Source: Brachybacterium sp. FME24 (GTDB lineage Bacteria; Actinomycetota; Actinomycetes; Actinomycetales; Dermabacteraceae). Taken from it: a stretch of DNA of 64,000 nt. The notes beneath the pieces are model-generated. The model did no database searches, was not told the origin of the DNA, and worked only from the letters and a program-made list of their open reading frames with translations. This document shows, piece by piece, positions 4,930 through 50,397 of this stretch (its first letter is position 1; every line of letters begins with the position of its first letter). Made by a program: the position numbers and the translations under genes. Where the stretch lies: positions 1 to 64,000 of the forward strand of contig NZ_JABUXV010000017.1 of the NCBI RefSeq assembly GCF_014897705.1. The letters run 5' to 3'.

Positions 4930-4962
4930 GCGGGGTCCTCCTGGGGTCGGGCCCTCACGGTA

Positions 4963-4997
4963 CTCGGCGCCACCCCCGCGAAGGGGACGGCGCCGAG
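4963..4997 (-). terminator. Hairpin terminator after dps
   Basis: A 9-bp stem CTCGGCGCC/GGCGCCGAG encloses a CCCC/GGGG inner stem, between the end of dps and the start of the M20 gene. There is no U tract. Confidence 0.6.
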
Positions 4998-5022
4998 GCG
5001 GGAGACGTGCAGTGTCAGCAGG

Positions 5023-5514: not shown

Positions 5515-5682
5515 GTCGTCTTCTCCTGTGCATCGGGTGTCGATGGTCGTGCATCGATCGTCGCGTGGTTCAACGGAGAAGGGAAGGGGGCTGTTCCTGC
5601 AGGCGCCGACCGCCTGGTCGCTACCGGGGAGCTGGTGCCTCCGTACGATGGGCAGGTATCCGATCCCGCAGGAGGAGCGTCC

Positions 5683-6564: not shown

Positions 6565-6620
6565 GGGTTCACCCCTCGACGCCGGTAGCTGGGGCGGGCT
6601 TGCGCGGGTCGGGTACGACA

Positions 6621-6657
6621 TGCGGCGCCGGGCCCTCGGTAGGGTCCCGGCGCCGCA
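6621..6657. terminator. Bidirectional hairpin terminator
   Basis: A 12-bp stem TGCGGCGCCGGG/CCCGGCGCCGCA with an inner CCT/AGG helix lies between the convergent genes ending at 6564 and 6702. No U tract on either strand. Confidence 0.75.
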
Positions 6658-6701
6658 CGCGTCAGCAGGTCAGTGGATCAGCAGGCCACTAGGTCTGCAG
6701 G

Positions 6702-7148
6702 TCAGAGAGCAGCCTTCGCGCGGATCTGGCGTTTGATGCGTACGAGCATCCCCGCCATGCCGTTCAGCCGCAGGGGGCTGACGACCTCCGCGAGTCCCAG
6801 TTCGCCGGTCACGGCCTCGGGGGTGTCGAGCACCTCGCCCACCGTGCGTCCGTCCAGAGCTTCCGCGAGGATCGACGCGAAGCCGCGGGTGGTCGGGGCT
6901 TCCGGCGGGGCGGAGAAGAACAGGCGCGCGGTCGCGTCACGGCCCGTGCCGTCCACCTCTGTGATCAGGAAGATCGGCGACTGGCACTCCGGAACCGGCT
7001 CGAGCAGCTCGGGGTGCTCGGCGTAGCGCTCGGGCAATGCCGGAAGGCTCTGCGAGAACTCCAGGAGCAGCTGCAGCCGATCCTTCCCGCCCAGGGCATG
7101 GAAGTCGTCGGCGATCTCGGCGAAAGCTGCGGGCAGTGCGTCGGTCAT
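6702..7148 (-). CDS. sufE: SufE-like cysteine desulfuration protein
   Basis: A 148-residue SufE family protein. SufE takes persulfide sulfur from a SufS-type desulfurase on a conserved cysteine and passes it to Fe-S assembly; here that cysteine is in [10 protein letters not shown]. The sequence matches SufE along its length ([37 protein letters not shown]). It overlaps the upstream sulfurtransferase by 4 bp (ATGA), so the two are co-translated and may share sulfur-trafficking roles. No sufS or sufBCD gene lies alongside. Confidence 0.92.
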
Positions 7149-8059
7149 CGGGTGGGGACCTCCCCGGGCTCGGTGCCGACGGCGATGGGCAGGCGCACGG
7201 CGTTGCCCCATTCCGTCCAGGAGCCGTCGTAGTTGCGCACGTTCTCGAAGCCCAGCAGGTACGTCAGCGCGAACCAGGTGTGAGCCGAGCGCTCGCCGAT
7301 GCGGCAGTAGGCGATGACCGGGGCAGAGGTGTCGAAGCCGAGTTCGCCCTGGTAGATCGCCTCGAGATCGGTGCGGGACTTGAAACGGCCGTCCTCCGCC
7401 GCTGCACGCGCCCACGGCACGGACCGGGCCGAGGGGATGTGCCCGCCGCGCACGGTGCCCTCCTGCGGGTAGTCGGGCATGTGGGTGCGCTCGCCGGAGA
7501 ACTCCTGGGGGGAGCGCACATCGACCAGCTGGCCGCCGAGGAAGTCCAGGACGTCCTCGCGGAAGGCGCGGATCGGGGCGTCCTCGCGCTCGATGACGGG
7601 GTACCCGCTCGTCGCGGCCGGTACGGCGTCGGTCGAGGTCGTCAGCTCGCGGCCCTCCGCCTGCCAGGCGGCGCGGCCACCGTCGAGCAGACGCACGTCG
7701 GGGTGGCCGAACAGCTCGAACACCCACAGGGCGTACGCGGCCCACCAGTTCGACTTGTCGCCGTAGACCACGACGGTGGTCTCTCGGGTGATGCCGGAGG
7801 CGTCCATGAGCTTCGCGAAACCCTCGCCGTCGACGTAATCACGGGTGACCTGGTCGTTGAGGTCCAGGTGCCAGTCGATCTTCACGGAGCCGGGGATGTG
7901 GCCGGTCTCGTACAGGAGCACATCTTCGTCGGATTCGACGACGACCAGATTCCCGGAACCTGCCGCGCCGAGGGTGTCGGCCAGCCATTGGGTGGTCACG
8001 AGCTTCTCGGGGTGTGCGTACTCCTGCAGGGCAGGAGTCGGGTCAACAGGAACGGTCAT
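7145..8059 (-). CDS. Thiosulfate/3-mercaptopyruvate sulfurtransferase
   Basis: A 304-residue protein with two tandem rhodanese domains. The inactive N-terminal domain covers about residues 20-140 and the catalytic domain about 165-290, with active loop YCRIGERS around the catalytic cysteine. The layout resembles mycobacterial SseA/CysA enzymes, which move sulfane sulfur from thiosulfate or mercaptopyruvate to thiol acceptors. Coupling to sufE (4-bp overlap) suggests a role in sulfur supply for Fe-S clusters. ATG 8059 follows an AGGTGCC sequence. Confidence 0.92.
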
Positions 8060-8321
8060 GGAGGCACCTCTCGAGACGCTGAATGGACTGGCTCCAGTCT
8101 GTCACCGCCGGGCAAGCCGTGGGGAACCGTGCACTGCGCCGGGAGCGGACAGGGGGCCCGTCCCAGGCGCAGATCGCAGTGACCAGGTCGTGCGGAGACC
8201 GAGATGAGCGAGCCCGAACCGGTGTCACCGGCGTGACCGGTCCACGCCTGACCATCGCGGAGGCAGAAACATCAGGCCCGCAGCCCTTCCCCTGCGACTC
8301 CACGGCTCCTACGGTGTCCCC

Positions 8322-8744
8322 ATGGAGAACCTGGAGCAGGAACCCATCGTCCCGCAGCTCGATCTGATCGTCCTGGACTGTCCCGATGCATTGGAGCTCG
8401 CGACCTTCTACGCGAAGCTCCTGCGCTGGCGCCTGGAGGACGGATCGGATCCGGACTGGGCGACCCTCGCCCCGCCGCGCGGAGGCCTCACTCCGGAGAA
8501 TCCCGACGGCGAGGCCACCCTCGCCTTCCAACGGGTCGAGGACTATCAGCGGCCGACCTGGCCCGGTGGTGTCCACCCCCAGCAGTTCCATCTCGACTTC
8601 TCGGTGTCCGACATCGACGGCGCCGAGCCGCAGGTGCTCGCGCTCGGCGCGACCCGGCACGAGCATCAGCCCTCCGCATCCGGCAGCTTCCGGGTCTACG
8701 TCGACCTGGCCGGCCACCCGTTCTGCCTGGTCCACGGAGCCTGA
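8322..8744 (+). CDS. VOC family (glyoxalase-like) protein
   Basis: A 140-residue protein of the vicinal-oxygen-chelate fold: QLDLIVLDCPDALELATFYAKLLRW in the first beta-alpha-beta-beta-beta half and QFHLDFSVSDIDGAE...GHPFCLVH in the second. The His/Glu metal positions look only partly kept, so it may be a binding protein rather than an enzyme. There is no Shine-Dalgarno; TACGGT (8310-8315) lies 6 nt before the ATG, which suggests a leaderless transcript. A strong hairpin follows. Confidence 0.85.
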   Translation: MENLEQEPIVPQLDLIVLDCPDALELATFYAKLLRWRLEDGSDPDWATLAPPRGGLTPENPDGEATLAFQRVEDYQRPTWPGGVHPQQFHLDFSVSDIDGAEPQVLALGATRHEHQPSASGSFRVYVDLAGHPFCLVHGA

Positions 8745-24201: not shown

Positions 24202-24855
24202 TCATTCCCTGGGAGTCGCGCTGGCCTGCACACTCAGGGAGACATGGCCCAGCGCGCGCAGCACCTGGATCAGTCGGTCGAAGGCGATCGTGCCCGCCAC
24301 CGCGCGCAGCACCACCGCGTCGTCCGAGAAGGGCTGTGCGGCGTCCGTCCCGGCGCTGAGGTAGGCGAGATCGCCGCGCGCGATCTCGGCCATCGGCTCG
24401 GCGTAGCGCATCAGCAGATCCGGATCCGAGGGCATCTCCCAGCCGTCCAGGGTGTGGAGCAGGTCGTCCAGCGCACGACGCGGAACGGAGTCGACCTGGG
24501 GCCATCCCAGTCGCGTCAGCATCACGGCGACCGACGGGTGCTCGGAACGCGCCGTGGTCCCCTCCGGGCGCTCCGCGTCGGCGCCGAGAGCGATCGTCTG
24601 CGCTTCCTCGAGGGCCCGGATCAGGGGCTCGTGCGGGTCATCGAGCAGCGCGGTGAGGCGACGGATGCGGGCGATCGGGGCGTCGGCCATCTCGCGCAGC
24701 ACCTGGATGAGCTGCAGTCTCTCCAGGTGGCGGGGCCCGTACTCCTGCCGGGTGGCGGTCAGGCGCTCGCCGGCAGGCAGCAGGCCCTCGCGTCGGTAGT
24801 ACTTGATCGACGCCGCGCTGCATCCGGTCGCGGTCGCCAGCTCGTGCAGAAGCAT
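24202..24855 (-). CDS. MerR family transcriptional regulator
   Basis: A 217-residue regulator. The N-terminal winged helix is typical: LLHELATATGCSAASIKYYRREGLLP, then RQEYGPRHLERLQLIQVLREM. A long C-terminal part (about residues 100-217) has no cysteine pattern for metal binding and probably senses a small molecule. ATG 24855 is chosen with AGAAGG 6 nt upstream; the frame extends to 24903 without support. It is divergent from the DUF2306 gene, with repeated GATAGT boxes between them. Confidence 0.88.
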   Translation of the reverse strand: MLLHELATATGCSAASIKYYRREGLLPAGERLTATRQEYGPRHLERLQLIQVLREMADAPIARIRRLTALLDDPHEPLIRALEEAQTIALGADAERPEGTTARSEHPSVAVMLTRLGWPQVDSVPRRALDDLLHTLDGWEMPSDPDLLMRYAEPMAEIARGDLAYLSAGTDAAQPFSDDAVVLRAVAGTIAFDRLIQVLRALGHVSLSVQASATPRE

Positions 24856-24883
24856 GGGTGCCTTCTCTCGCGCGAAATCCCTG

Positions 24884-24942
24884 GATAGTGCGACGACCAG
24901 CAACTATCTTGATGGCGCCACGGTAGATAGTCGCACTATCGT
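24884..24942. promoter_or_regulatory. Divergent MerR operator with four GATAGT boxes
   Basis: GATAGTGCGAC (24884-24894) and GTCGCACTATC (24930-24940) form a perfect 11-bp inverted repeat. ACTATCT (24903-24909) and AGATAGT (24925-24931) form a second one inside it. GATAGT-CGC-ACTATC (24926-24940) is itself a short palindrome. TATCGT (24937-24942) is a possible -10 box 7 nt before the DUF2306 start, with TTGATG (24909-24914) upstream at a MerR-like wide spacing. Confidence 0.6.
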
Positions 24943-24949
24943 ACAGCGC

Positions 24950-25441
24950 ATGGACACCATCGCCCCGGTTACCCCAGTCATCGTCGTCCATGCCGTCGCC
25001 GCCCTGTACGTGCTGATGCTGGGCCCGTTCCAGATCCTGCGAAGGCGACGGGATCGCGCCCACCGGCTGCTCGGGACGACCTGGGTCGCGGCGATGCTGG
25101 TGGTGTGCTTCTCGAGCTTCGGCATCATGCCGGGCGGGTTCTCGTGGCTGCACGGGCTGTCGATCTGGACTCTCCTGTGCCTCGTGTTCGCGATCGCCGC
25201 GATCCGCCGCGGCAACGTCCCGACGCATCGGGGCTTCATGGTCGGCTCCTACCTCGGCACGCTCGGGGCCTTCGCCTTCGCCGCCCTGGTGCCCGCGCGG
25301 CTGATCCCGCAGCTGCTGCGCAGCGAACCCCTCGTCGTCGTCACGACGGTCCTCGCCGTGGGCGCCACGGTCGCCGTGTTCGCCCTGCTTGCGCTGCGAG
25401 CGCCCGCGGCCGAGGCGGCACGCCGCGAATCGGTCAGTTGA
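24950..25441 (+). CDS. DUF2306 domain membrane protein
   Basis: A 163-residue integral membrane protein with four spans, matching the DUF2306 pattern: LYVLMLGPFQILRRRRDRAHRLLG in the first loop, then SFGIMPGGFSWLHGLSIWTLL and RRGNVPTHRGFMVGSYLG. ATG 24950 replaces the longer frame from 24803, which would overlap the regulator. The divergent MerR gene probably controls it. Its stop overlaps the convergent DUF4352 gene by 8 bp. Confidence 0.85.
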   Translation: MDTIAPVTPVIVVHAVAALYVLMLGPFQILRRRRDRAHRLLGTTWVAAMLVVCFSSFGIMPGGFSWLHGLSIWTLLCLVFAIAAIRRGNVPTHRGFMVGSYLGTLGAFAFAALVPARLIPQLLRSEPLVVVTTVLAVGATVAVFALLALRAPAAEAARRESVS

Positions 25442-26066
25442 CCGGGAGGCCGACTTCCTCGCCGCCGGTGCCGACGGGGTCCGTGTAGCTGACCGACTCG
25501 ATCACGACGTCCTCGGCGACGTCGACATAGAGAGCCGCAGTGGCCTTCTCGCCGGGCTCGAGCTGCGGTCCGCTGGTCGAGAAGCTCGCATAGCGCAGCG
25601 CGTACGTCGTCCCGTCGGAGCCGTAGACCACGAAGTTGTCGCCGGCCAGTCCGTAGGTCTCGGTGCCCAGGTTCTCGATGGTGAGGGTGATGCGAACGAA
25701 CTTGCCGTTCTCCGTGGTCAGCTGCTCGTCCTCGGTGTCGAGAGTGGTGCCCTCCTCGAGGGGTTCGGTGCTGATCGTCAGCGTGCCCTCCGACGGGGGG
25801 TCGAGCGTAGGTCCTGGGGGTTCGTCGGTCGGGTCCTCGGAGGGTTCCTCAGTGGGCTCGTCCGTCGGGTCCTCGGTCGCGGTCTCGCTGATGCTCGGAT
25901 CCTGGGTCGGCTCCTCGGCCGGCTCGCGCGTCAGGAGGAAGACTCCGACCCCGCCGGCGGCCAGGACCAGCACCACGATCGCAGCGCAGCCGCAGGCCAG
26001 GGCGATGTACAGCGGCGAGCGGCTCTTCCTCTGCGGGGCGCCGGGGGCGCCGTAGGGGTTGCTCAT
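25434..26066 (-). CDS. DUF4352-like membrane-anchored secreted protein
   Basis: A 210-residue protein with a short cytosolic N-terminus (MSNPYGAPGAPQRKSRSP), one membrane span (IALACGCAAIVVLVLAAGGVGVFLL), an acidic Pro/Glu/Asp/Thr linker and an Ig-like DUF4352-type domain (KFVRITLTIENLGTETYGL; LYVDVAEDVVIESVSY). The domain should lie outside the cell. GGAGG lies 7 nt before ATG 26066. Its promoter (26171-26215) has the palindrome seen upstream of both WXG-type genes. Confidence 0.85.
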   Translation of the reverse strand: MSNPYGAPGAPQRKSRSPLYIALACGCAAIVVLVLAAGGVGVFLLTREPAEEPTQDPSISETATEDPTDEPTEEPSEDPTDEPPGPTLDPPSEGTLTISTEPLEEGTTLDTEDEQLTTENGKFVRITLTIENLGTETYGLAGDNFVVYGSDGTTYALRYASFSTSGPQLEPGEKATAALYVDVAEDVVIESVSYTDPVGTGGEEVGLPVN

Positions 26067-26170
26067 GGTGGGACCTCCAGGTCAGAGCGCTCGGTGAGTG
26101 CATCGTCGTACGGGGAATCGCGGCAGATCGGGGCAGATGGGGAGAGAAAGGGCGAGTCGCCGTGCGGTCC

Positions 26171-26215
26171 ACGCTATCGCCGGGCTCCACCAGGGCGCGA
26201 TGGGGAGAAGTCCCC
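26171..26215 (-). promoter_or_regulatory. Promoter with GGGGA/TCCCC palindrome (site B)
   Basis: This is the main feature of the gene-free stretch 26067-26389. On the minus strand GGGGACTTCTCCCCAT (26215-26200) ends 23 bp before a TAGCGT -10 box (26176-26171), giving a leader of about 98 nt for the DUF4352 gene. The palindrome and the four bases after it (GGGGA-TTCTCCCCATCGCG) are nearly identical to site A. The rest of the stretch, up to the BCCT gene, shows no clear signal. Confidence 0.65.
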
Positions 26216-26389
26216 GTCGAACGTCGTCGGTCGGCGCGCCGCGCGACCCGCGCGAGGGTCTTGAGATGGAGGATGGTCAGTGCGCATGATGTACTGCCGT
26301 CACGGAACACCCATCGAGAAGGCCTCAGCCGGCGGAACACGATGCGCACGATCTGATCGACCGGGGCGACACGACGAGGAGTCGAGACA

Positions 26390-28198
26390 GTGCTCAATCG
26401 ATTGCACGATGTACTGCGCCTGCGCACATCGCCGGTGATCTTCTTCAGCTCGGCGGCGATCATCATCGCCTTCGTGATCGGGACGATCGCCTTCACCGAC
26501 CCGCTGAACACGGCCGTCTCCGCGGCGTCGGACTGGTTGCTGACCAACCTCGGCTGGTTCTACATCCTCGGCGTGACGGTGTTCCTGGCGTATCTGATCA
26601 TGATCGCTGTGGGCCGTTTCGGTCGCGTGAAGCTGGGCCCCGACGACGAGCCGCCGGAGCATTCGGGCGGGGCCTGGTTCGCCATGCTGTTCGCCGCCGG
26701 AATCGGCTCGATCCTCATGTTCTGGGGCGTCGCCGAGCCGATCAGCCACTTCGGTGACCCGCCGCGCGCGACGACGCTCGGCATCGAAGGGGGAACCTGG
26801 AGTGCGGCGCAGGACGCCATGAACTTCACGTACTACCACTTCACGCTGCACACCTGGACGATCTTCACGCTGCCCGCGCTGTGCTTCGCCTACTTCATCC
26901 ACAAGCGCAACCTGCCGCCGCGCGTGAGCTCGATCTTCCAGCCACTCCTCGGCGAGGGCATCCACGGCCCGATCGGCAAGGCCATCGACGTGGTCGCGAT
27001 CGTCGGCACGGTCTTCGGCATCGCCGTCTCCATCGGCCTGGGCACCCTGCAGATCAACGGCGGCCTCAACCAGCTGCTCGGGGTTCCGGAGAACGCCGGG
27101 TGGCAGCTGATCATCATCGGTGTCGTCACCGGTCTCGCGCTGATCTCGGTCTCGCTCGGGCTCGACAAGGGCATCAAGATCCTCTCGAACTTCAACATCG
27201 TGGCGGCGATCCTGCTGCTGCTCTTCGTGCTGGTCGCCGGCGGGTCCACGCTGTTCGTCCTCAAGGGCACCATCGAGTCCTTCGGCAGCTACCTCGTGAA
27301 CCTGCCCGAGCTCGCGCTGTGGAACGACACCTTTGCGAACACCGGCTGGCAGAACACCTGGACCGTCTTCTACTGGGCCTGGACCATCACCTGGTCACCG
27401 TTCGTGGGCATCTTCATCGCCCGCATCTCCAAGGGCCGCACGATTCGTCAGTTCGTCGCCGGGGTGCTCGCAGTGCCCTCCGCGTTCTCCGTGGTCTGGT
27501 TCGGGATCTTCGGGTTCTCCAGTTTCAACATCGAGATGAACCTGCCCGACGGCGACACCGAGAACAGTCTGGTCCAGCGTGTGGTCGAGGACGGCGATAT
27601 CCCCGGCGCCCTGTTCGCCTTCCTGGACCACTATCCGGCCTCGTTCTTCATCTCCGCGGTCGCGATCCTCCTGGTCGTCATCTTCTTCGTGACCTCCGTG
27701 GACTCCGCGGCCCTGGTCACGGACTCGATGGCCAACGGGCATGAGGACTACAACCCGCTGGCCCAGCGCATCTTCTGGGGTCTCGCGATCGGGCTCATCA
27801 CTGCGACGCTGCTGGTGTTCTCCGGCAGCGGTGGTCTGGAAGCGCTGCAATCCACGATCATCCTCGTCGGCCTGCCGTTCTTCGTCATGGCCTTCTTCCA
27901 GATGTACGCCCTGTACCGGGCGCTGCGGGAGGACGCCGGCGAGCTGCCCCAGATGCGCACCCGCGAATGGGCGCAGGTACTGCCTCCCGAGGAGTACGAG
28001 CGCCGCGAGGAGGACGAGGAGTACGACACCGGGGGCTATGTCGTCGAGCCCACGTACACCACCGAGATCCCGGTCATGCGCGACCCCTACGAGGAGGAGT
28101 GCGAGGCCGTCGACGGTTCCGACCACGGAACCCTGTCGGCGCGCACCGGCACCGCGCGGGCCGATCTGCCGGAGGACGGTCGCTCGGAGTCCCGCTGA
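26390..28198 (+). CDS. BCCT family betaine/carnitine/choline transporter
   Basis: A 602-residue transporter with twelve spans. BCCT hallmarks are MFWGVAEPISHF (about residues 103-114) and the eighth-span signature WTVFYWAWTITWSPFVGIFIA near 322-342, containing the tryptophan box that binds quaternary ammonium. The C-terminal 90 residues are acidic and tyrosine-rich (EEYERREEDEEYDTGGY), which in relatives tunes osmotic activation. GTG 26390 has GAGGAG about 9 nt upstream. Likely role: uptake of compatible solutes. Confidence 0.93.
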   Translation: MLNRLHDVLRLRTSPVIFFSSAAIIIAFVIGTIAFTDPLNTAVSAASDWLLTNLGWFYILGVTVFLAYLIMIAVGRFGRVKLGPDDEPPEHSGGAWFAMLFAAGIGSILMFWGVAEPISHFGDPPRATTLGIEGGTWSAAQDAMNFTYYHFTLHTWTIFTLPALCFAYFIHKRNLPPRVSSIFQPLLGEGIHGPIGKAIDVVAIVGTVFGIAVSIGLGTLQINGGLNQLLGVPENAGWQLIIIGVVTGLALISVSLGLDKGIKILSNFNIVAAILLLLFVLVAGGSTLFVLKGTIESFGSYLVNLPELALWNDTFANTGWQNTWTVFYWAWTITWSPFVGIFIARISKGRTIRQFVAGVLAVPSAFSVVWFGIFGFSSFNIEMNLPDGDTENSLVQRVVEDGDIPGALFAFLDHYPASFFISAVAILLVVIFFVTSVDSAALVTDSMANGHEDYNPLAQRIFWGLAIGLITATLLVFSGSGGLEALQSTIILVGLPFFVMAFFQMYALYRALREDAGELPQMRTREWAQVLPPEEYERREEDEEYDTGGYVVEPTYTTEIPVMRDPYEEECEAVDGSDHGTLSARTGTARADLPEDGRSESR

Positions 28199-41761: not shown

Positions 41762-42897
41762 GGACACCCGTGCTCTATCTCGACTCCGCCGCCACCACCC
41801 CGGTGCGCCGCGAGGCCCTCGAAGCGGCCTGGCCCTACCTGACCGGCACCTTCGGCAACCCCTCCAGTCACCACACGGTCGGAGAATTGGCGGCCGCAGG
41901 CCTGGAGGACGCCCGCCGCCGCGTCGCCGCCGTCCTGGGTGCTCGCCGCAGCGATATCACCTTCACCGCCGGCGGCACCGAGGCCGCGAACCTCGCGATC
42001 AAGGGCCTGGCGCTCGCCGCCCCGCGCGGGAAGCATCTGGTCACCTCCCCGATCGAGCACGAGGCGGTGCTGGGCAGCGTCGAACACCTCCAGCGCGTGC
42101 ACGGCTTCGAGGTGTCGATCCTCGAAACCCGGCCCGACGGGACCGTGACCCCGGAGGCGCTGCAGGCCGTTCTGCGCGAGGACACCACTCTGGTCAGTCT
42201 CGCCCTCGCCAACAACGAGATCGGCACGATCAGCGACATCCGCACGCTAGCCGAGATCGCCCACGCCTCGGGAGCGCTCCTCCACACCGATGCGGTGCAG
42301 GCCGCCGGCTGGGTCGACCTGCGCGGGCTCGGCGCCGACGCGCTGACGATCTCCGGGCACAAGATCGGTGCCCCGAAGGGCATCGGGGCTGCGATGATCC
42401 GTGGCCGGTTGCCGCTGGAGCCCCTGGTCCACGGCGGCGGGCAGGAGAACGGCCGGCATTCCGGCACCGAGAACGTGGCCTTCGCCGTCGCGCTCGCCGT
42501 GGCGTTGGAGCTTTCCGAGGCCGAGCGGGAGGAGAAGGTGGCGCGCCTGGCTCCGCACCGTGACGCCTTCATCGACCAGGTGCTCACCGCGCACGATGAT
42601 GTGCTGCTGACCGGCGCCGCGCCGGGGCCCGGCCGACTGCCGGGGCACGCCTCGTTCTGCGTGCCCGGGCGCAGCGGGGAGTCGATCCTGCTGGATCTCG
42701 CCGAGAGGGGTGTGATCGCCTCGAGCGGATCGGCCTGCGCTGCCGGCAGCGACGAGCCCAGCCACGTGCTCACTGCCCTCGGGATCTCCCGTGAGGTGGC
42801 GCAGTCCGCGGTGCGCTTCACGCTGCCCGCGGAGATCACCGCCGAGCAGCTGGAGACCGTCGGGGCCCTGGTTCGCCAGGTGGTCTCCCCATCCTGA
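41758..42897 (+). CDS. Cysteine desulfurase (NifS/IscS-like)
   Basis: A 379-residue PLP enzyme that takes sulfur from cysteine. It opens with LYLDSAATTPVRREALEAAWPYL; the PLP lysine is in SGHKIGAPKG and the persulfide cysteine in SSGSACAAGSDEPS. The GTG start overlaps nadC by 4 bp (GTGA). Dedicated desulfurases in nad operons are known to serve the NadA cluster, and this placement suggests that role. A general housekeeping role cannot be excluded. Confidence 0.92.
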   Translation: MRTPVLYLDSAATTPVRREALEAAWPYLTGTFGNPSSHHTVGELAAAGLEDARRRVAAVLGARRSDITFTAGGTEAANLAIKGLALAAPRGKHLVTSPIEHEAVLGSVEHLQRVHGFEVSILETRPDGTVTPEALQAVLREDTTLVSLALANNEIGTISDIRTLAEIAHASGALLHTDAVQAAGWVDLRGLGADALTISGHKIGAPKGIGAAMIRGRLPLEPLVHGGGQENGRHSGTENVAFAVALAVALELSEAEREEKVARLAPHRDAFIDQVLTAHDDVLLTGAAPGPGRLPGHASFCVPGRSGESILLDLAERGVIASSGSACAAGSDEPSHVLTALGISREVAQSAVRFTLPAEITAEQLETVGALVRQVVSPS

Positions 42898-42959
42898 TCC
42901 CCGCCGGCCCCGTGAGGCGCAGGTCGAAAGGCGATCGGGGGCGTCCATGACCGTCGACG

Positions 42960-43382
42960 TCACCATCTCCCGTAGCGGCCGTAGCGGTACCGCGCGAGCC
43001 ACAGGGCGCACGGCTTCGTCGACCCTCGGCGCACGCCTCGGCACGTGGGCATCGGATCGGGATACTCGGGATCGCCCTCCATCCGGCCCATGTCAGGGTC
43101 GATCCAGACCGGCACGACCAGGAACTCGGAGCGCAGGTCGAAGGCGTTCCAGAAGATCTCGCAGTCACAGCCGGCGCCGCTGGATCGCAATCTCCTCAGG
43201 AGCGCGGTCGCGGCCGGAGCGCGCCGATCACGGTAGCGCGTGGCCCAGCGCAGCCCCTTGCATCCGAAGGCGAGCATGCGGAAGACATAGCACTGGAGGC
43301 ATTCGCCGTCGGCAGGATCGGTCAGGTGCGCTGCCAGGTCCCGCAGGTACTCCTCGGCCTCTTCGAGGGGAGTCGATGTCAT
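42960..43382 (-). CDS. DUF2695 domain protein
   Basis: A 140-residue cysteine-rich protein. The DUF2695 core is recognisable: CLQCYVFRMLAFGCKG, LRWATRYRDRRAPAATALLRRL, then GCDCEIFWNAF. The CxxC and CDC cysteines could bind a metal. The function of the family is unknown. It is convergent with the nad operon, 62 bp apart, and marks the backbone side of the accessory island boundary. Confidence 0.85.
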   Translation of the reverse strand: MTSTPLEEAEEYLRDLAAHLTDPADGECLQCYVFRMLAFGCKGLRWATRYRDRRAPAATALLRRLRSSGAGCDCEIFWNAFDLRSEFLVVPVWIDPDMGRMEGDPEYPDPMPTCRGVRRGSTKPCALWLARYRYGRYGRW

Positions 43383-43738
43383 GGAACCAGTCGATCATCG
43401 CCACGTCGACCGGCGGGAGCCTTGGTGCCCCGATGTGGATGCAGGCGCCCTGGGGAGGAACAAGCGAGCAGAGATGCATTGGATGAATCAATGGTCTGGT
43501 TGTTGACTCGGCCTCACCGCGCACCGCGGGACCGGTTCGACGTGACTGAGCGGCTTCGCTGCCGCGTGGCTTTCGGCGGATCCAACCCTTTCTTTGCCTG
43601 GTCAAGAGCCTAATCGGGGCTTGCTGCATGCTGCGAACACCGCTCCGGAGGAAACCGTCCGATCGCAGACCTCTCGTTGCGCTGACAGACTCCATGATAC
43701 GTTCACAGCATGTTTGATGCAGTAGAAGGAATCGTGAG
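43383..43738. other. Gene-free left flank of the recombinase module
   Basis: No convincing gene on either strand. The sequence has lower GC near its right end (AT-rich patches around 43480-43510 and 43695-43735). GAAGGA (43725-43730) is the probable ribosome binding site of the integrase. I found no clear attachment site, inverted repeat or tRNA. Confidence 0.5.
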
Positions 43739-44836
43739 GTGTGGGTGGTGACCCGTGAGGTCCGGTCCCTGGCTCCGGTGTTGCTGCTGGACCCGGCTCG
43801 CTCGACGTTCGATGAGATGCTGCGCCGGTACGCCGTGTCGATGCGTTCTCGCGGACTGTCAGAAGGCACGATCCGGGTGCATCAGTTTGGCGTGAAGCGG
43901 TTCTTCCGTTTCGCTGGGACCTATCCGTGGGAGTGGCGGCCGCAGGACGTCGAGGACTTCACCTCGTCGCTGCTGTCTCGCCCGGAGCCGTTGGCGCACT
44001 CCACGATCCGGGGCTACCACCAGATCTTGAAGGGCTTCTGCGGGTACGTCTCGCACCCGTCCTACGACTGGGCCGATGTCTGTCTAGAACGGTTCGGGGC
44101 CGCGCCAGCCCAGATCTGTCATCCGTGGAACACCTTCGCGCACCTGGCCGAGTTCGAAGCGCGGCCCACTCGACGGCCGTTCGGGTACGACGAGCTCGAG
44201 GCCTTCTTCGCTCAGGCCGATGAACGCGCCCACGACCTACTCGAGGGCCGCAAGAAGGGTGCGTTGCCCGCATTGCGTGACGCCCAGTTCTTCAAGACGG
44301 TCTACGCGTTCGGGCTCCGACGTCGCGAGGCGGTGATGCTCGATCTGAACGACCTCCGCCCCAATCCCTACGTTCCCGAGTGGGGCGCGTATGCGAAGGT
44401 GCAGGTTCGATACGGCAAGGCGATGAGGGGATCACCGCCTCGCCGCCGCACCGTGCTGGCGTGCCCGGAATTCGCGTGGGCGTCGGAAGGGCTTCGCTAC
44501 TGGGTTGAGGAAGTCCGTCCGCGGCTCGCACCTGCGACTGATGCTCTGTGGGTCAGTGCGCGACGCACTCGCATGACAACCCGCACGGTGGACCACCGGT
44601 TCGCGCAGATCCGCGAGGCGGCGGGCTTGGATCCTGCGCTGACGTTGCACAGCCTCCGCCACTCCTACGTGACCCACCTGGTCGAGTTCGGCTACGCCGC
44701 CCAGTTCGTGCAGGAGCAGGTCGGACACAATCACTCGTCGACGACCGCGATTTACACGTCGGTCGGTGACGATTTCAAGAATCGGATCTTCCAAGAAGCG
44801 CTGCGGCGCGTGCTCGGAGAAGGAGAAACCGCATGA
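43739..44836 (+). CDS. Tyrosine recombinase/integrase
   Basis: A 365-residue site-specific recombinase. A SAM-like core-binding domain (about residues 25-110: LRRYAVSMRSRGLSEGTIRVH; HSTIRGYHQILKGFCGYV) precedes the catalytic domain. Catalytic residues are visible: Arg in YAFGLRRREAVMLDLND, His-x-x-Arg in LHSLRHSYVTHL, and the second His and nucleophile Tyr in VGHNHSSTTAIYTSV. GTG 43739 has AAGGA 8 nt upstream. It is coupled to the HTH gene by an ATGA overlap. Confidence 0.93.
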   Translation: MWVVTREVRSLAPVLLLDPARSTFDEMLRRYAVSMRSRGLSEGTIRVHQFGVKRFFRFAGTYPWEWRPQDVEDFTSSLLSRPEPLAHSTIRGYHQILKGFCGYVSHPSYDWADVCLERFGAAPAQICHPWNTFAHLAEFEARPTRRPFGYDELEAFFAQADERAHDLLEGRKKGALPALRDAQFFKTVYAFGLRRREAVMLDLNDLRPNPYVPEWGAYAKVQVRYGKAMRGSPPRRRTVLACPEFAWASEGLRYWVEEVRPRLAPATDALWVSARRTRMTTRTVDHRFAQIREAAGLDPALTLHSLRHSYVTHLVEFGYAAQFVQEQVGHNHSSTTAIYTSVGDDFKNRIFQEALRRVLGEGETA

Positions 44837-45159
44837 CCCGGCAGTTCGATTGGCATCTTCGCCGCAAGCTTGCCGAGCGCGGCATCTACAAGACCACCGA
44901 GCTGGTGCCGCTGCTCGCCGAGCAGGGCGTGAAACTCTCACGCGAGCAGGTCTACCGCCTGGTGACATCCAACCCGCAACGACTGAATATCGAAGTCCTC
45001 GACGCGCTCTGCGTGATCCTCGACTGCACACCGAACGACCTGATCAGCTTCACCGTTGCGGCACGTGCGCAGCCAAAAGCCGCCGATGGCGGCACGGTCA
45101 CCGACATCGGCACACTCAAGACTGTCCCGGCACGGATCACCCGGCCCGACAAATCGTGA
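44833..45159 (+). CDS. XRE-like helix-turn-helix protein
   Basis: A 108-residue DNA-binding protein. Its HTH runs across about residues 10-72: LAERGIYKTTELVPLLAEQGV, LSREQVYRLVTSNPQRLNIEVLDALCVILDCTPNDLI, the layout of the Cro/C1-type (YozG-like) family. The last 35 residues look unstructured. It overlaps the integrase by 4 bp and the following gene by 4 bp (GTGA), so the three proteins are made together. It may regulate the element or act as an accessory DNA-bending factor. Confidence 0.88.
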   Translation: MTRQFDWHLRRKLAERGIYKTTELVPLLAEQGVKLSREQVYRLVTSNPQRLNIEVLDALCVILDCTPNDLISFTVAARAQPKAADGGTVTDIGTLKTVPARITRPDKS

Positions 45160-47162
45160 CCTCTCGATCATCTACCGCTCTTCTCGACAACACCGCCGCA
45201 CTGCTCGCTCACGGTGATCCGTGGACGGCGGTCGGCGAGGCGGGGGTGCGTGCACTGCTCGAGCAGCTTGCCCCCACGCCACAGGGGCAGGCACATTTTC
45301 GACGTTTCCTTGCCAGGGTGGACGCGACCTGGATCAGCGACGCCGATCCGCACCTTCCCCGTCAGGCGCAACGTTTGCTGCGGATGCTCCGAGCCAGCGG
45401 GTTCCCGGTCGTACTGCCAGCATGCGGCGAATGCGGCGGGGGACAGCTACTCACGCAAACGCTCGAGGATGGGCGTAGAGTCTGCAACACGTGCCGGAAA
45501 GCTCGATACACCCGTCGCTGCGATGAGTGCGACAAGACCAGAGTGATCTCGCACCGCATCGAGGGGAAGAGCGTGTGCGGCACGTGCCGCCGCCGGCAGC
45601 CGGAGGCGAAGGAGGCGTGCATCCGATGCGGGCACGACCGGCTCGTCCAGAACAGAACAGCGGATGGCCCGATCTGCCCCCAGTGCGCGCCCGGCAAGAT
45701 CGAGCCTTGCGTCCACTGCGGCAGGGAGCGGCGAGTCCGGGTCAAGTTCCTCGGCGGCGCGACTTGTGACCCCTGCTTCAGCATCATCCGCGGCACACGC
45801 CGCCCCTGCCCGCGCTGCGGCACGGTCGGCCTGGTCGCGTCGGTCGCCGACGACGGTACTCTGGCGTGCTCGGCATGCACCGGGGTGCGATCGCGGTTCA
45901 TCTGCGCCGAGTGTGGCGTCGAGGACATCCGCAACGGGAAACGCTGCTACCCGTGCCTTGCACGCATCGCCATAGACGACCTGTTCGCCGCCGGAACGCC
46001 CGCCCGCCGTCGGGCGCTCGAACCGCTCCGGCAACGCCTCTTCGAACACCCTGAACCCAAGAGCATGGCACGCTGGCCCGGCCGCAGTGCATCCGCAGCG
46101 ATCCTGTGTGAAATTCTCACCGAGGACATCGAGCTCACCCACGAAGCGTTGGACCGCCACCCCACGGTCCAGGCGGCGAGCCTGCTACGGCATTCGCTCG
46201 TCGACGTGGGCGCGCTCGAACCGCGGGACACCGCATCCGTGCAGTTCATGGCCTGGATCGACACGTTCCTCCAGGGCCGCCCCGAACACATCACGCGCAC
46301 CCTCGGCCCGTTCTGCCGGTGGCACGTTCCTGCCCGCATCCGGCTATTCGTCCAACGCAACGGGATCACAGACGGCACGTTCGTTCGCGCCCGCCGCGTG
46401 TGCCGTATCGCCGCTGACTTTCTCGCCCACCTTGATACTGATGGGATCGAGCTGAAGACCGCCCCGCAAGACGCCGTGGAGTCTTATCTCGACCGGTACC
46501 CGCGCAACTTCGAACCGCTCGCTGTGTTCTTGCGCTGGGCGTCGCAGAGAGGCATCGCCGAACGGATCCACCCGGTCCCTTCTCCATATGCGATTCCCTA
46601 TACCGCGTACCCAATCGATACCTACCGGGCGTGGATGCACCGATTCGCGACCGACGAAACAATCCGGCTCAGAACCCGCATCTGCGGGCTACTCGCCGGG
46701 ATATCGGGCAGGCCAAGCACGACGATCGCAGGCCTGACCACCGCCAGCATCATCGATGACACCGACGGGATGCAGCTCCGGCTCGGGGCGACACCCTTCC
46801 AGCTGCCGCCGCCCTTGCCAGCGCTGATCCGACGGCAACTCGCCACCCCACGGCGATGGGACACGGAGTCAACGTGGATCTTCCCGTCGAAGCTGCGAGC
46901 TGGTGAACACGTGCACGCCAGCCGGTTCACCACCGAACTGCAACACCTCAACTGCGGCCTGGTCGAGCTCCGAGGAGCCGCACTGCTAAACCTCGCCGCC
47001 ACCATGCCCGTCGCACCACTCTGCGACCTCACCGGAGCGTCACCGAACGTTGCTGCAAGATGGCAGACCGTCGCAGCATCCGCCTATGCGCAATACCCCG
47101 CGATCCGGCCTCGAGCCGAGCCCGACCACAGCATCTCTGTCCGAAGTCGCGCGAACGAGTAA
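45156..47162 (+). CDS. Large zinc-ribbon-array protein with recombinase-like C-terminus
   Basis: A 668-residue protein. Residues 90-267 hold twelve CxxC knuckles (C90/93, 110/113, 122/125, 141/144, 155/158, 174/177, 185/188, 204/207, 218/221, 238/241, 250/253, 264/267), enough for six zinc ribbons. From about residue 360 it resembles a phage-integrase fold: a core-binding-like part (FMAWIDTFLQGRPEHITRTL), then RTRICGLLAGISGRPSTTIAGL and a final RWQTVAASAYAQYP. The usual Arg/His-x-x-Arg residues are not evident, so it may be a non-catalytic partner or a diverged recombinase. GTG 45156 overlaps the HTH gene. Confidence 0.8.
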   Translation: MTSRSSTALLDNTAALLAHGDPWTAVGEAGVRALLEQLAPTPQGQAHFRRFLARVDATWISDADPHLPRQAQRLLRMLRASGFPVVLPACGECGGGQLLTQTLEDGRRVCNTCRKARYTRRCDECDKTRVISHRIEGKSVCGTCRRRQPEAKEACIRCGHDRLVQNRTADGPICPQCAPGKIEPCVHCGRERRVRVKFLGGATCDPCFSIIRGTRRPCPRCGTVGLVASVADDGTLACSACTGVRSRFICAECGVEDIRNGKRCYPCLARIAIDDLFAAGTPARRRALEPLRQRLFEHPEPKSMARWPGRSASAAILCEILTEDIELTHEALDRHPTVQAASLLRHSLVDVGALEPRDTASVQFMAWIDTFLQGRPEHITRTLGPFCRWHVPARIRLFVQRNGITDGTFVRARRVCRIAADFLAHLDTDGIELKTAPQDAVESYLDRYPRNFEPLAVFLRWASQRGIAERIHPVPSPYAIPYTAYPIDTYRAWMHRFATDETIRLRTRICGLLAGISGRPSTTIAGLTTASIIDDTDGMQLRLGATPFQLPPPLPALIRRQLATPRRWDTESTWIFPSKLRAGEHVHASRFTTELQHLNCGLVELRGAALLNLAATMPVAPLCDLTGASPNVAARWQTVAASAYAQYPAIRPRAEPDHSISVRSRANE

Positions 47163-47322
47163 CCCGCGTGTTCGGGAACCTATGCAGGGGAGTAGGGACG
47201 CTCGGCGTACCGTACACATATCCACGCTCGCCCGTCACCGTCCTGTGACTCGGTACGCGCGCAGGTAGAGTGCCGCAGACGAACACTGTCGTTTATCAAA
47301 TCACACTGAGGGGTAGATCACG

Positions 47323-48183
47323 ATGGCGCGATCCACGCACGGGGGTAGAAGAGTATTCGGGGCGCTGACATCAGTCTTGCTCGCGGGAGCAATGGTTCTT
47401 GCGGGAACCGGTGTCGCTGTCGCGGAACAGCCAGCGTCAGAGACCGTTTCAGCGGAACGAGTCGAGGAATCTCTGCAGAACGTAGAGACGCATGATTCCG
47501 ACTTGTTGGTCGCGCCGGTTTCGCCGGACGCCTATGGGGCTGATGGCTTGGGATACTCGGTTCCTATTGGTGGTGGGAGCGTTGGAGTTCCTAGCGACGC
47601 CTCGCAGGGCGTGACGTTCCAAGAAGCCGGAGGTGAAACCCTAGCCATTCAATTGCCGAATTCTGAAAAGGCTGACTCCGTGGAGTTGCTTGAGGACGGC
47701 ACTTTTACATATCCAGATACGAGCAGCGCTAACGCCGTCGTGGTGACGGAGCGTGGCGTGCAGATGCTGACTGCCATCGCGAATGAGGAAGCCTCGACGA
47801 GCTACACCTACGAGCTCGACCTCGCTGAGGAGCAGAGTATCCAAGTGACTCCTAGCGGGGCAGCCATGGTGGTTGATGCTGCTGGTAATACGGTGCTGGT
47901 GTTCGGAGAGCCGTGGGCCTCGGATGCGGAGGGCAAGCCCGTCGATACCTGGTTCGAGGTAGACGGGCCGACTTTGACTCAGGTCGTGGACCACCAGGAC
48001 ACCGAGAACGTCGCTTACCCCGTCGTGTCTGATCCGATCTTCCTTGCACCGTGGATGGTCAAGTGCCTGGTTGGCATTGGCCTCAAGGGCCCCGACATCA
48101 CGCGCATCGCACAGCTGGGTACTCCCTACTCAATCTTGGCCGCCTTCGGCCGTGGGGCCGTAGCTTGCATCTTCATGAAGTGA
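47323..48183 (+). CDS. Secreted protein of unknown function
   Basis: A 286-residue protein with a clear signal peptide (VFGALTSVLLAGAMVLAGTGVAVA, cleavage before EQPASE). The mature part is acidic and strand-rich with the motif AYPVVSDP, seen in several actinobacterial secreted proteins. The last 45 residues are hydrophobic with two cysteines (KCLVGIGLKG and GAVACIFMK), unlike the rest. GAGGGG precedes the ATG. GC content and codon use are lower than in the backbone. Its stop overlaps the next start by one base (TGATG). Confidence 0.8.
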   Translation: MARSTHGGRRVFGALTSVLLAGAMVLAGTGVAVAEQPASETVSAERVEESLQNVETHDSDLLVAPVSPDAYGADGLGYSVPIGGGSVGVPSDASQGVTFQEAGGETLAIQLPNSEKADSVELLEDGTFTYPDTSSANAVVVTERGVQMLTAIANEEASTSYTYELDLAEEQSIQVTPSGAAMVVDAAGNTVLVFGEPWASDAEGKPVDTWFEVDGPTLTQVVDHQDTENVAYPVVSDPIFLAPWMVKCLVGIGLKGPDITRIAQLGTPYSILAAFGRGAVACIFMK

Positions 48184-48464
48184 TGTCGATGTTCAGACGC
48201 CGAAGCAGATCCGAGCTCGAAGCAGATCTCCTAGAAGTTGAGAGGCAGATCGGCGATAACCCTCTCGCATCAGAAAGAGTGGTGGCGGCTCAGAGCGTGG
48301 TGGAGCGCAACGAAGGGGAGGGTAAGGAGAAGATCTCTTCGATTCTGGCTGAGCGGGGGCTTCCCAGCCTCGAGGAACTAGGTCGAGTCCAGTTGCGAAA
48401 CACGACGCGCTGGTGGCGGCTCCATCGCCAGAAGAAGCGCCTAACGCGGCAACTGGAGCGGTAA
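48183..48464 (+). CDS. Small basic coiled-coil-like protein
   Basis: A 93-residue charged, helical protein (RSELEADLLEVERQIGDN; TTRWWRLHRQKKRLTRQLER) without signal peptide or membrane span. Its ATG shares one base with the stop of the secreted-protein gene, so translation is coupled; an ATG two codons later is possible. The family is not recognised. The coupling suggests a partner or immunity role, by inference only. Confidence 0.68.
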   Translation: MSMFRRRSRSELEADLLEVERQIGDNPLASERVVAAQSVVERNEGEGKEKISSILAERGLPSLEELGRVQLRNTTRWWRLHRQKKRLTRQLER

Positions 48465-48491
48465 CAACTATCAGCTAGCCTTCCATGAAGA

Positions 48492-48977
48492 TCACGGAGG
48501 GCTGGCTGGCGTCTTGGACTTCGCGACTTTGCGAACCATTGATATGACCACACCGGGGTCAGTTAGTAGCTCGCGGCTCTCCGGATTGCGTATGAACTGA
48601 TTCAGCATTCCTTGAGTGCTCAAGAGGCTCCGATACCAGTAGCCGCCGAAATGGTGTCGGCTAACCGGGAGAGAGATAGTAACGCCATCGACGTCCGTAA
48701 TTGCAGTGCTTCCGTCTTTTGGGACGAAGCCTGGATCGTCGTACACTGCAGCGATCAGCGCTGCGTATGAGATCTGCGTTATCCATCCTGCAAGTGCGTG
48801 CCTGGAACTCTTCAAGTCTAGGTTAAGTAAGACAATCTCGGACCAATCGAACGCCGATCGCCATTCGTTCTGGACGAGGTGAACGACTCCCGGGGGTGTG
48901 AGCAGCAGAGCGTGGCGACGGGGGTCGCCGACAGCGAGGCCTTCCGCCACTTCTTCCAGCGGGCCGAATCGCTCCAA
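48492..48977 (-). CDS. Hypothetical protein
   Basis: A 161-residue protein if started at TTG 48977, which has AGGAGG 8 nt upstream; a GTG at 48986 lies inside the ribosome binding site itself. It is mixed alpha/beta with no signal peptide (HALLLTPPGVVHLVQNEW; WSEIVLLNLDL; LAGWITQISYAALIAAVYDD). Low GC and codon use match the two preceding genes, with which it converges. The family is not recognised. Confidence 0.65.
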   Translation of the reverse strand: MERFGPLEEVAEGLAVGDPRRHALLLTPPGVVHLVQNEWRSAFDWSEIVLLNLDLKSSRHALAGWITQISYAALIAAVYDDPGFVPKDGSTAITDVDGVTISLPVSRHHFGGYWYRSLLSTQGMLNQFIRNPESRELLTDPGVVISMVRKVAKSKTPASPP

Positions 48978-49563
48978 TACTCCCACCTCCTAGCTATCGA
49001 AGTTCGACGGCCGTTTAACGGCTTCATGATCGGTGCCGCTGAGCTGCCGAGTGATCACAGCATGATACTCGTCTAATACGACGTGGGGCGCGACCATGCT
49101 CGTTCTCCCAATTTCCCCGGCAACCGCGCGCGGAGCCGCTTGGGCTCTCAGTTCCTAGCATCGGCAAAGGTGAAGGTGAACCAACATCGGCGCTGCCGGC
49201 CGTTGGGTGACCGTTCGCGGCGAGTTTCGTCTGCGGCGCGCGCGTCGCTACAGGGACTGTTGCTCAGGCCGAAGCTAATCGGGCTCGCCGTCACTATCTC
49301 AAAGATGGAGGGCATCGTCGGCGTGATCGTCGCGACGGCAACGAGTCGCCATGGGACGGCTGGACCGCGACCTCAACAGGAAGGGCAATCACACCGCAAC
49401 TGCGAAGTCATTCGAGAGTTGCTCACTGCGATAGAGCACTTGCACCAGACGGTCATACCGATCGTCGGCCCTGCTGGCCACGACATCCACCGGGTGAGGC
49501 GACGGGGTCCTCCGCGGTGTGAAACGATCCGGCCCGACGGGGAAAGCCCCGTACACTCACGGC
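48978..49563. other. Gene-free right flank of the island
   Basis: About 590 bp without a convincing gene. A plus-strand open frame from 49083 has basic, unstructured, shadow-like composition and no ribosome binding site. CTAATCGGG at 49275 repeats a 9-mer from the left flank (43611), too short to call an attachment site. The last 30 bases hold the promoter of the following gene. Confidence 0.5.
49537..49557 (+). promoter_or_regulatory. Leaderless-type promoter with hairpin
   Basis: TACACT (49552-49557) lies exactly 6 nt before GTG 49564 and no Shine-Dalgarno is present. A small hairpin ACGGGG-AAAG-CCCCGT (49537-49552) overlaps the spacer and could be a regulator site. Confidence 0.5.
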
Positions 49564-50397
49564 GTGAGAGATGAGACCGACACGAACCCCGCCGTCCACC
49601 GCGCCGTGATCCTCGCCCGCGGGCTCGGTACGCGCATGCGCAGGACGGACGATTCCGCGCAGCTCGACGACAAGCAGGCCGCCGTCGCGGCGAGCGGGGT
49701 CAAGGCCCTGATCGACGTCGGCCGCCCCTTCCTGGACTATGTGATCTCCGTGCTCGCCGACGTCGGCGTCACCGAGGTGTGCCTGGTCATCGGCCCCGAG
49801 CATGACGTGCTGCGTGAGTACGCGGCCGCGACCAGTGGGGGCCGCGTCACCGTGACCACCGCGGTCCAGGCCCAGCCGCACGGTACCGCCGATGCCGTCG
49901 CCGCCGCCCGCGAATTCGCCGGTGACCAGCGCGTCATCATCCTGAACTCCGACAACTACTACCCGCGCGAGGCTCTCGCCGCGCTCGCCGCCGCCCCCGG
50001 CAGCGCCCTGGTCGGCTTCGACCGCGACGCCCTCGTGGCGGGCTCCAACATCCCCGCCGAGCGGCTGCGCTCCTTCGCCCTCGTCTCCGCGGATGAGCAC
50101 GGGCACCTGCGGGACATCGTCGAGAAGCCCGACGAGGAGACCCTCGCCGCCTACGGGGACGAGGCCCCCATCTCCATGAACGCCTGGCTGTTCACCCCCG
50201 CCATCTTCGACGCCTGCGCCCGCATCGAGCCCTCCGTGCGCGGGGAGTTCGAGATCATCGACGCTGTGCGACTCCTGATCGCCGACGGGCAGAGCGTCAC
50301 GGTCGTCCCGTCGGCCGTCGGCGTGCTGGACATGTCCTCCCGCGGGGACGTGGCCGCCGTGCAGGAGGCGCTCGCCGGGATCGAGGTGCGCCTGTGA
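49564..50397 (+). CDS. Sugar nucleotidyltransferase family protein
   Basis: A 277-residue nucleotidyltransferase. The signature loop is ILARGLGTRMR (about residues 15-25), a variant of the usual LAGGxGTRL, followed by KALIDVGRPFLDYVI, LNSDNYY (metal/substrate Asp) and IVEKPDEE. It should activate a sugar-1-phosphate with NTP. It overlaps the next gene, a galactokinase-type kinase, by 4 bp, so the pair may phosphorylate a sugar and then activate it. Confidence 0.88.
   Translation: MRDETDTNPAVHRAVILARGLGTRMRRTDDSAQLDDKQAAVAASGVKALIDVGRPFLDYVISVLADVGVTEVCLVIGPEHDVLREYAAATSGGRVTVTTAVQAQPHGTADAVAAAREFAGDQRVIILNSDNYYPREALAALAAAPGSALVGFDRDALVAGSNIPAERLRSFALVSADEHGHLRDIVEKPDEETLAAYGDEAPISMNAWLFTPAIFDACARIEPSVRGEFEIIDAVRLLIADGQSVTVVPSAVGVLDMSSRGDVAAVQEALAGIEVRL

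Follow-up and report, generated by a model that had tools for sequence, protein, structure and literature searches.

A tyrosine recombinase, a helix-turn-helix protein and a zinc-ribbon pseudo-recombinase as the probable recombination module of a family of cargo-carrying mobile elements in Actinobacteria

The closest described systems to the one reported here are transposons of the Tn554 type, RIT elements (recombinases in trio), GInt islands and SE (strand-biased circularizing integrative elements). Van Houdt et al. (2012; PMC3414803) have described Tn554-related transposons of Actinobacteria, one recombinase of which is very long; in that paper both recombinases of Tn554-like elements are credited with potential catalytic motifs, and their third partner with a relationship to TnpC, while in RIT elements all three of the overlapping genes encode recombinases. 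In GInt (Bardaji et al. 2017; PMC5385486), the four genes ginABCD, three of them of the integrase type, form an operon at the left end of an element with cargo, a short conserved right end and a circular form; GinC lacks part of the catalytic motifs, and GinD is a small helix-loop-helix protein. SE (Idola et al. 2023; PMC10214605), found in that survey only in Gammaproteobacteria, carry the left-end operon intA-tfp-intB-srap, which encodes two active recombinases together with Tfp, a protein without the RHRY residues, and Srap; these elements form double-stranded circles and have host bases beside their ends. The present analysis concerns the window, a stretch of 64,000 nucleotides from Brachybacterium sp. 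FME24 (contig NZ_JABUXV010000017.1), and in it three genes on the plus strand which encode a tyrosine recombinase (Int), a Cro/C1-type helix-turn-helix (HTH) protein (XRE) and a zinc-ribbon pseudo-recombinase (ZnR). In our view, this trio probably serves as the recombination module for a family of actinobacterial transposons that carry cargo and circularise, Int being the active recombinase, ZnR its catalytically dead partner with zinc ribbons and XRE the HTH component. A literature search, which had most subscription papers and all bioRxiv preprints outside its scope, returned no paper describing an Int-XRE-ZnR trio.

Similar to the Tn554-type elements, which occur on plasmids and chromosomes of Actinobacteria (PMC3414803), the trio combines a short recombinase with a long recombinase-like protein and, as is often the case there, a small partner. 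Unlike in Tn554, the long partner is devoid of a catalytic set and has putative zinc ribbons, and the small HTH_26 gene stands in the middle. The latter feature also separates the trio from RIT, with which it shares the three overlapping recombination genes. With GInt it has in common the operon at the left end, the cargo, the short conserved right end, a partner deficient in catalytic motifs, a small DNA-binding-type protein and a circular form, the last in a relative only; however, there are three genes with a single complete recombinase instead of four genes, and the word 'zinc' is absent from the main text of PMC5385486. The likeness to SE, which is one by description, extends to the left-end recombinase operon, the partner without RHRY, the double-stranded circles and the host bases beside the ends, but only Int, XRE and ZnR are present here. 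The element may accordingly be filed as a variant of the multi-subunit tyrosine-recombinase transposons, with a Tn554/GInt/SE-like architecture and a gene content of its own.

Int (43739-44836; 365 amino acids) matches Pfam Phage_integrase with an E-value of 1.7e-21 and, as judged from residues R194, K227, H304, R307, H330 and Y339, which are invariant in an alignment of 13 sequences, is an ordinary tyrosine recombinase with an intact R/K/HxxR/H/Y set. It is joined by a 4-bp overlap (ATGA) to XRE (44833-45159; 108 amino acids), which matches HTH_26 (E 6.1e-15), and XRE is in turn joined by a second 4-bp overlap (GTGA) to ZnR (45156-47162; 668 amino acids). Overlaps of this length are common among homologous trios. 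The original prediction, made without database searches, had described the three genes as joined in this way, and had further assigned to the third 12 CxxC motifs over residues 90-267 and a recombinase-like C-terminus without an obvious catalytic set; all of these features were recovered, and the motifs have been given a new interpretation. The 12 CxxC motifs of the array (45423-45956) pair into six consecutive units, the starts of which are 30-33 residues apart, and are better taken as six tandem zinc ribbons than as the 'twelve knuckles' proposed earlier, zinc binding itself being a prediction. They are not a product of chance, since ten cysteines within residues 204-267 are invariant in 24 aligned homologues; C185 and C188 are nearly invariant. 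The last three ribbons are common to the family, and short members possess those three alone. In a set of 53 distinct homologues with a length of 430 amino acids or more, the number of CxxC motifs is 6 (n=25), 12 (n=7), 5 (n=4), 18 (n=4), 7 (n=3), 16 (n=3), 0 (n=2) or 8, 13, 14, 15 and 21 (n=1 each), so that the arrays mostly comprise about 3 to about 10 ribbons, the additional ones being N-terminal. The two homologues without any CxxC motif are the G181 copy, which has a split frame, and L141, a weak match (best E 9.7e-5) that is not part of a trio.

The remaining part of ZnR (45993-47120; about residues 280-655) consists of a core-binding and a degenerate catalytic region, as indicated by a XerD profile match and by alignment. 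The family profile, built from 24 members (window ZnR and 23 relatives), matches XerD with an E-value of 4.2e-5; when the 24 members were taken singly, 6 had a match to Pfam Phage_integrase (best E 1.2e-4). With window ZnR alone, nothing convincing was found: the E-values of the weak matches were 0.044 in both Pfam and NCBIfam and 0.88 among PDB sequences, and there was no match in PHROGs. No catalytic set is visible in the 24 aligned members, where the catalytic positions are not conserved; thus, the intact R/H/R/Y set that, according to the original prediction, would mark an ordinary recombinase was not seen. In the profile-profile register with Int, the first catalytic arginine falls on proline, HxxR on VELR and the second histidine on alanine, and the position of the tyrosine, counted on by eye from this weak alignment, falls on tryptophan. 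Y647 near the C-terminus is invariant in all 24 members and is located some ten residues past the place of the nucleophile. Because of these replacements and the position of Y647, ZnR is read as a catalytically dead paralogue of tyrosine recombinases. In the plasmid records listed, ZnR often goes under the annotation hypothetical protein, and in some cases it is labelled recombinase XerD, site-specific integrase or transcription regulator.

The mobile element that carries the trio at its left end, with the cargo to the right of it, is located on the plus strand at 43462-49450 (about 5,989 bp). The alignment of the flanks of homologous trios, suggested together with the original prediction, set its ends to within 1-2 bp, based on empty sites in congeners and on shared tips. 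When the region 42300-50200 was searched against 38 genomes of the genus, empty sites were found in two of them (G314 and G046), in which the flanks left of about 43,460 (43,402 in the BLAST alignment of G046) and right of 49,583/49,519 adjoin, with about 153 (G314) and about 85 (G046) unaligned bases between them; a third genome, G299, likewise has the flanks together, less completely, as the left similarity ends at 42,851. A 99.9% identical copy of 44017-49453, with a right flank different from that of the window, is present on an 8,736-bp contig of Brachybacterium tyrofermentans FME25 (G314). A further copy in G299 (L053, about 3953-8729) is 90% identical and has other cargo and other flanks, its insertion site being read as the middle of a putative MazG-like reading frame. 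The left tip AAG(C/T)GAGCAGAG(A/T)TGCATTGGATGA... (43462-43500) is common to the window and L053, where it starts at position 3953 after an unrelated flank, and the conserved right end (49361-49450) with the tip ...GAGCACTTGCACCAGAC is also found in L053-L056. The flanks diverge where these tips end, as seen for the left tip AAGYGAGCAGAG in two copies and for the right tip in five, one of them with a single change. Allowing no more than one mismatch, a scan of 396 order genomes located the right-tip pattern only in four Brachybacterium genomes, at five places in all; hits at 2 or 3 mismatches are probably due to chance. No target duplication was seen at the ends, and a preferred single attachment site, as for Tn554, is not supported: the two window-type copies with both ends lie in unrelated sites, and the right flanks of the five right tips differ. 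These sequence comparisons point to past mobility of the element. Conserved flanks around fixed chromosomal genes, the finding named at the outset as speaking against a mobile trio, were not encountered.

Homologues of ZnR were detected in 35 of 297 order genomes (E ≤ 0.001), in 28 of 396 phylum genomes (E ≤ 1e-10) and in 225 of 72,556 plasmid records, 203 of which come from ten named genera, all actinobacterial. There was no match in 50,697 phage records, and three IMG/VR scans yielded four Int relatives altogether, one of them with the full trio. The ZnR loci compared stem from the order search (31), the phylum search and order remainder (20), plasmids (10) and one IMG/VR contig, and these 62 rows, 56 of which have the trio, represent 60 distinct places (L019 equals L143, and L031 equals L142). 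At 55 of the 60, XRE and Int are located directly upstream of ZnR on the same strand, which gives the frequency with which the three genes travel together, a count also proposed with the original prediction. The five places without the trio are L025, for which there is no upstream sequence, L017, with XRE only, and L136, L138 and L141, with neither gene. A second subfamily is represented in the same genome by a trio on contig C30, the ZnR of which is 25% identical to that of the window; left ends of this type (GCATCAWTG...) are sharply set by differing flanks in several genomes.

A circular record and tandem copies were found in Paenarthrobacter. Plasmid pA of Paenarthrobacter ureafaciens AT carries a direct tandem of two trio elements, with a period of 4,714 and no mismatch over the 4,699 bases compared. 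The same strain has a 4,712-bp circular record, plasmid pD (NZ_CP094493), with six annotated genes, all belonging to the element and none of them annotated as a replication gene; all 4,705 bases of pD that were compared equal the tandem unit. We read pD as a putative free circle of the element, an origin inferred from the sequence, and the tandem on pA as a circle that would have inserted beside a resident copy. In strain YJN-5, 99.9% identical copies reside in two plasmids with different flanks.

In pA as well as in pYJN5-1 and pYJN5-2, the left tip is preceded by CGCCGATAA-N6-TTATGTNAA, with differing central bases and outer flanks. The motif matches the dif site of Frankia alni as quoted in PMC3025954. 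Because no such dif-like site is present at the joint of the circular pD record, the site is assigned to the target. With at most two fixed positions changed, the motif, which was derived from these three plasmids, was found 13 times on both strands of 1.09 Mb of loci as against 0 times in five shuffled sets, the 13 including the three source copies and repeated places. A scan of 46 distinct regions upstream of trio Int (at least 36% identical to window Int, with at least 300 bp of upstream sequence) located it 239-271 bp ahead of Int, and on its strand, in 7 cases (L126, L128, L131, L139, L151 = L152, L156 and L157) and on the opposite strand in 3 (L091, L134 and the plus-strand trio of L150), with none in the other 36. 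An eighth same-strand case is the minus-strand trio of L150 (Int 33.7% identical), with the motif 254 bp upstream; on this Kocuria rosea plasmid (NZ_CP127860), two trios of Int, HTH and a third gene stand back to back and diverge from one dif-like site. In L126 and L128, the DNA beside the dif-like site resembles the Paenarthrobacter left tip.

All eight same-strand copies have six CxxC motifs, equivalent to three ribbons (for the minus-strand trio of L150 within the first 190 ZnR residues only). Other three-ribbon copies, such as those of the C30 type, have no dif-like site upstream, and none was found within 700 bp upstream of Int in the six-ribbon window copy (L033). A link between ribbon array and target choice is therefore just a suggestion. 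As a tentative speculation, to which we assign a low probability, the array might be a modular DNA-reading domain on a dead recombinase, with the number of ribbons (about 3 to 10) and their faces setting the place of insertion, and one branch with three ribbons might have specialised on XerCD dif-like sites, riding beside the host's dimer-resolution site without destroying it. IMEX elements integrate at dif by means of host XerCD and have no recombinase of their own. One trio subfamily resembles them in inserting beside dif-like sites; however, the trio elements have their own Int, and the dif-like site is found on their left side only.

The 50.5-kb plasmid pC was also considered as a candidate for a larger element sharing these ends. 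This was rejected, as its joint is not end-to-end: a remnant left tip follows a dif-like site there. As a separate observation, a plasmid of Paenarthrobacter sp. AT5 (NZ_CP136442; L154, at about 2073) was seen to have pA-like and pC-like parts next to each other (compared with the joint in NZ_CP094492 of strain AT; L155/L158), and it looks like a cointegrate of the two, joined at a dif-like site with a remnant left tip of the trio element. The pC-like plasmid carries atzC and mercury genes.

For the transposon family as we picture it, Int would be the only catalytic subunit, making the cuts and joining both ends to a double-stranded circle. The circle would be the moving form and would insert elsewhere without target duplication. 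ZnR would most likely bind the ends and/or the target DNA and assemble the synapse with Int, a role suggested by its ribbons, by the resemblance of its body to a recombinase and by GinC of GInt and Tfp of SE as analogues. XRE might be a small DNA-binding accessory or regulator that helps ZnR to build the complex on the ends. The constant right tip beside changing target bases suggests that the element would bring its own bases at the right end, and the window copy may still be active. Of the earlier proposal that one recombinase has turned into a zinc-ribbon DNA-targeting subunit, the recombinase-like, non-catalytic nature of the protein and its ribbon array are borne out, while the targeting, and with it the division of labour outlined here, stays conditional.

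Several observations weigh against this picture. The circle was found only in a relative with an Int 38% identical to that of the window, and pD lacks 2 bp that are present at the tandem joint, a difference that may be due to trimming during assembly. In B. tyrofermentans FME25, the copy is broken inside Int, the start of Int and the left tip being absent, and the right tips L054 and L055 have no recognisable trio within about 4-5 kb to their left; these two may mark copies that have decayed, lack the trio or carry long cargo. An inverted repeat at the tips does not rise above chance: the 5-bp arm at the L053 joint is equalled or beaten by 1,726 of 20,000 random joints, and the window joint is worse (12,972 of 20,000 equal or better), in a scan that covered some spacer placements only. 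Tip inverted repeats were accordingly rejected as evidence; by eye, the Paenarthrobacter copies show arms such as CCGCAG/CTGCG. The profile-profile comparison of ZnR with Int has a probability of just 0.25%. The structure model of ZnR, computed with one homologue (L090) as an aid, is poor (mean pLDDT 48.9, pTM 0.29), pLDDT being mostly 67-83 over residues about 361-470 but falling to about 50 at 391-410; a fold search with it gave no match at E ≤ 0.001. For these reasons the model was dropped as evidence.

A regulatory role of ZnR and XRE, in which both control the expression of Int or the direction of excision and take part neither in target choice nor in strand exchange, is conceivable, though in our estimate unlikely. 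XRE has an HTH of the regulator type, and small HTH proteins serve integrases as directionality factors, which counts in favour of such a role. Similarly, TnpC of Tn554 stimulates transposition and affects its orientation (cited in PMC3414803). However, a body resembling core-binding and catalytic domains exceeds the needs of a repressor, and GinC and Tfp, which have a recombinase fold with incomplete catalytic motifs, have been reported to be essential for recombination in GInt and SE, respectively (PMC5385486, PMC10214605).

It also appears rather improbable that the element is a true Tn554-family transposon whose TnpB has merely diverged and gained zinc ribbons. The number, sizes and architecture of the genes, the lack of a target duplication, the cargo to the right of the operon and the described actinobacterial Tn554-like elements with one very long recombinase (PMC3414803) agree with this explanation. 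However, ZnR had no match at E ≤ 0.001 in any of six plasmids tested from Table 2 of that paper (five actinobacterial and one from Novosphingobium, the Staphylococcus Tn554 itself lying outside the comparison), a query that does match other plasmids, and the small gene of the trio, in the middle, encodes an HTH_26 protein. Int relatives are present in 3 of the 6 plasmids, and in the two integrase pairs examined, which show Int-domain matches only, the long partner keeps an integrase-domain match. One of the plasmids, pNOCA01, has an integrase pair at 109873-113510, taken as the Tn554-like pair of Van Houdt et al., and, separately, a trio of Int, HTH and hypothetical protein at 24370-27630. The third protein of the latter has no match to ZnR by tblastn; this trio may be a distant cousin and may illustrate that a very diverged homologue could escape the searches. 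In place of the two catalytically complete tyrosine recombinases that characterise Tn554, the trio has a complete Int and a ZnR without a catalytic set across its 24 members. The trio seems to work like Tn554, yet no membership by sequence was found, and by the sequence tests made it falls outside that family. From the initial proposal of a Tn554-like transposition system, the mobile element is retained, in view of its varying flanks and the empty sites, and the affiliation with Tn554 is not. Finally, a reading of the trio as a resident system for maintaining a chromosome or plasmid, such as a Xer-like resolution module, with borders that reflect rearrangements, is highly improbable despite the dif-like site adjoining the module of one subfamily, given the patchy distribution, the near-identical copies with different flanks, the empty sites, the tandem copies and the circular record.

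The cargo of the window element comprises three open reading frames, at 47323-48183 (plus strand; 286 amino acids, with a signal-peptide-like start by eye), 48183-48464 (plus strand; 93 amino acids) and 48492-48986 (minus strand; 164 amino acids), none of which has a Pfam match at E ≤ 0.1 or a defence-family match at E ≤ 0.01. A stretch of 40-60 bp in the right part of the element (49121-49180) matches several Brachybacterium places (e.g. in G029 and G104) and is perhaps the end of another mobile element. Several features were observed around other trios. Near trios in plasmids of Streptomyces and Rhodococcus lie genes with the annotation TnsA-like transposase subunit (L145 6853-9707, L146 1-649 and L159 1-1175), accompanied in L145 and L159 by an HTH gene. 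The Paenarthrobacter copies have a small fourth gene whose sequence overlaps the end of ZnR (L152 8896-9126), and two Rhodococcus copies have a larger one that also overlaps (L146 5848-6903, L159 6374-7417). Two plasmids of one Rhodococcus strain with long-array copies have a common stretch that extends past the element. Two plasmids of Mycolicibacterium aubagnense HPB1.1 (L147 and L160) share a 100% identical trio with MFS and MerR neighbours; their identity stops sharply at ...GACGTCACCATTA, which by eye is like the Paenarthrobacter right tip GACGCCACTAA. In G305, near-identical 7-kb stretches, each with a trio in which the Int match is split between frames, are located near the ends of the two large contigs C1 and C2 (L061-L064), which may be linear replicons with common ends.

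Taken together, the ends, empty sites, tandem copies and natural circular record set out a transposon family of Actinobacteria. Its three proteins provide a system in which to ask for the role of catalytically dead recombinase partners, a question common to GinC and Tfp, and the dif-like insertion sites tie trio elements to the dimer resolution of plasmids and chromosomes. If the ribbon array selects targets, ZnR and Int would represent a natural, adjustable DNA-targeting recombinase.

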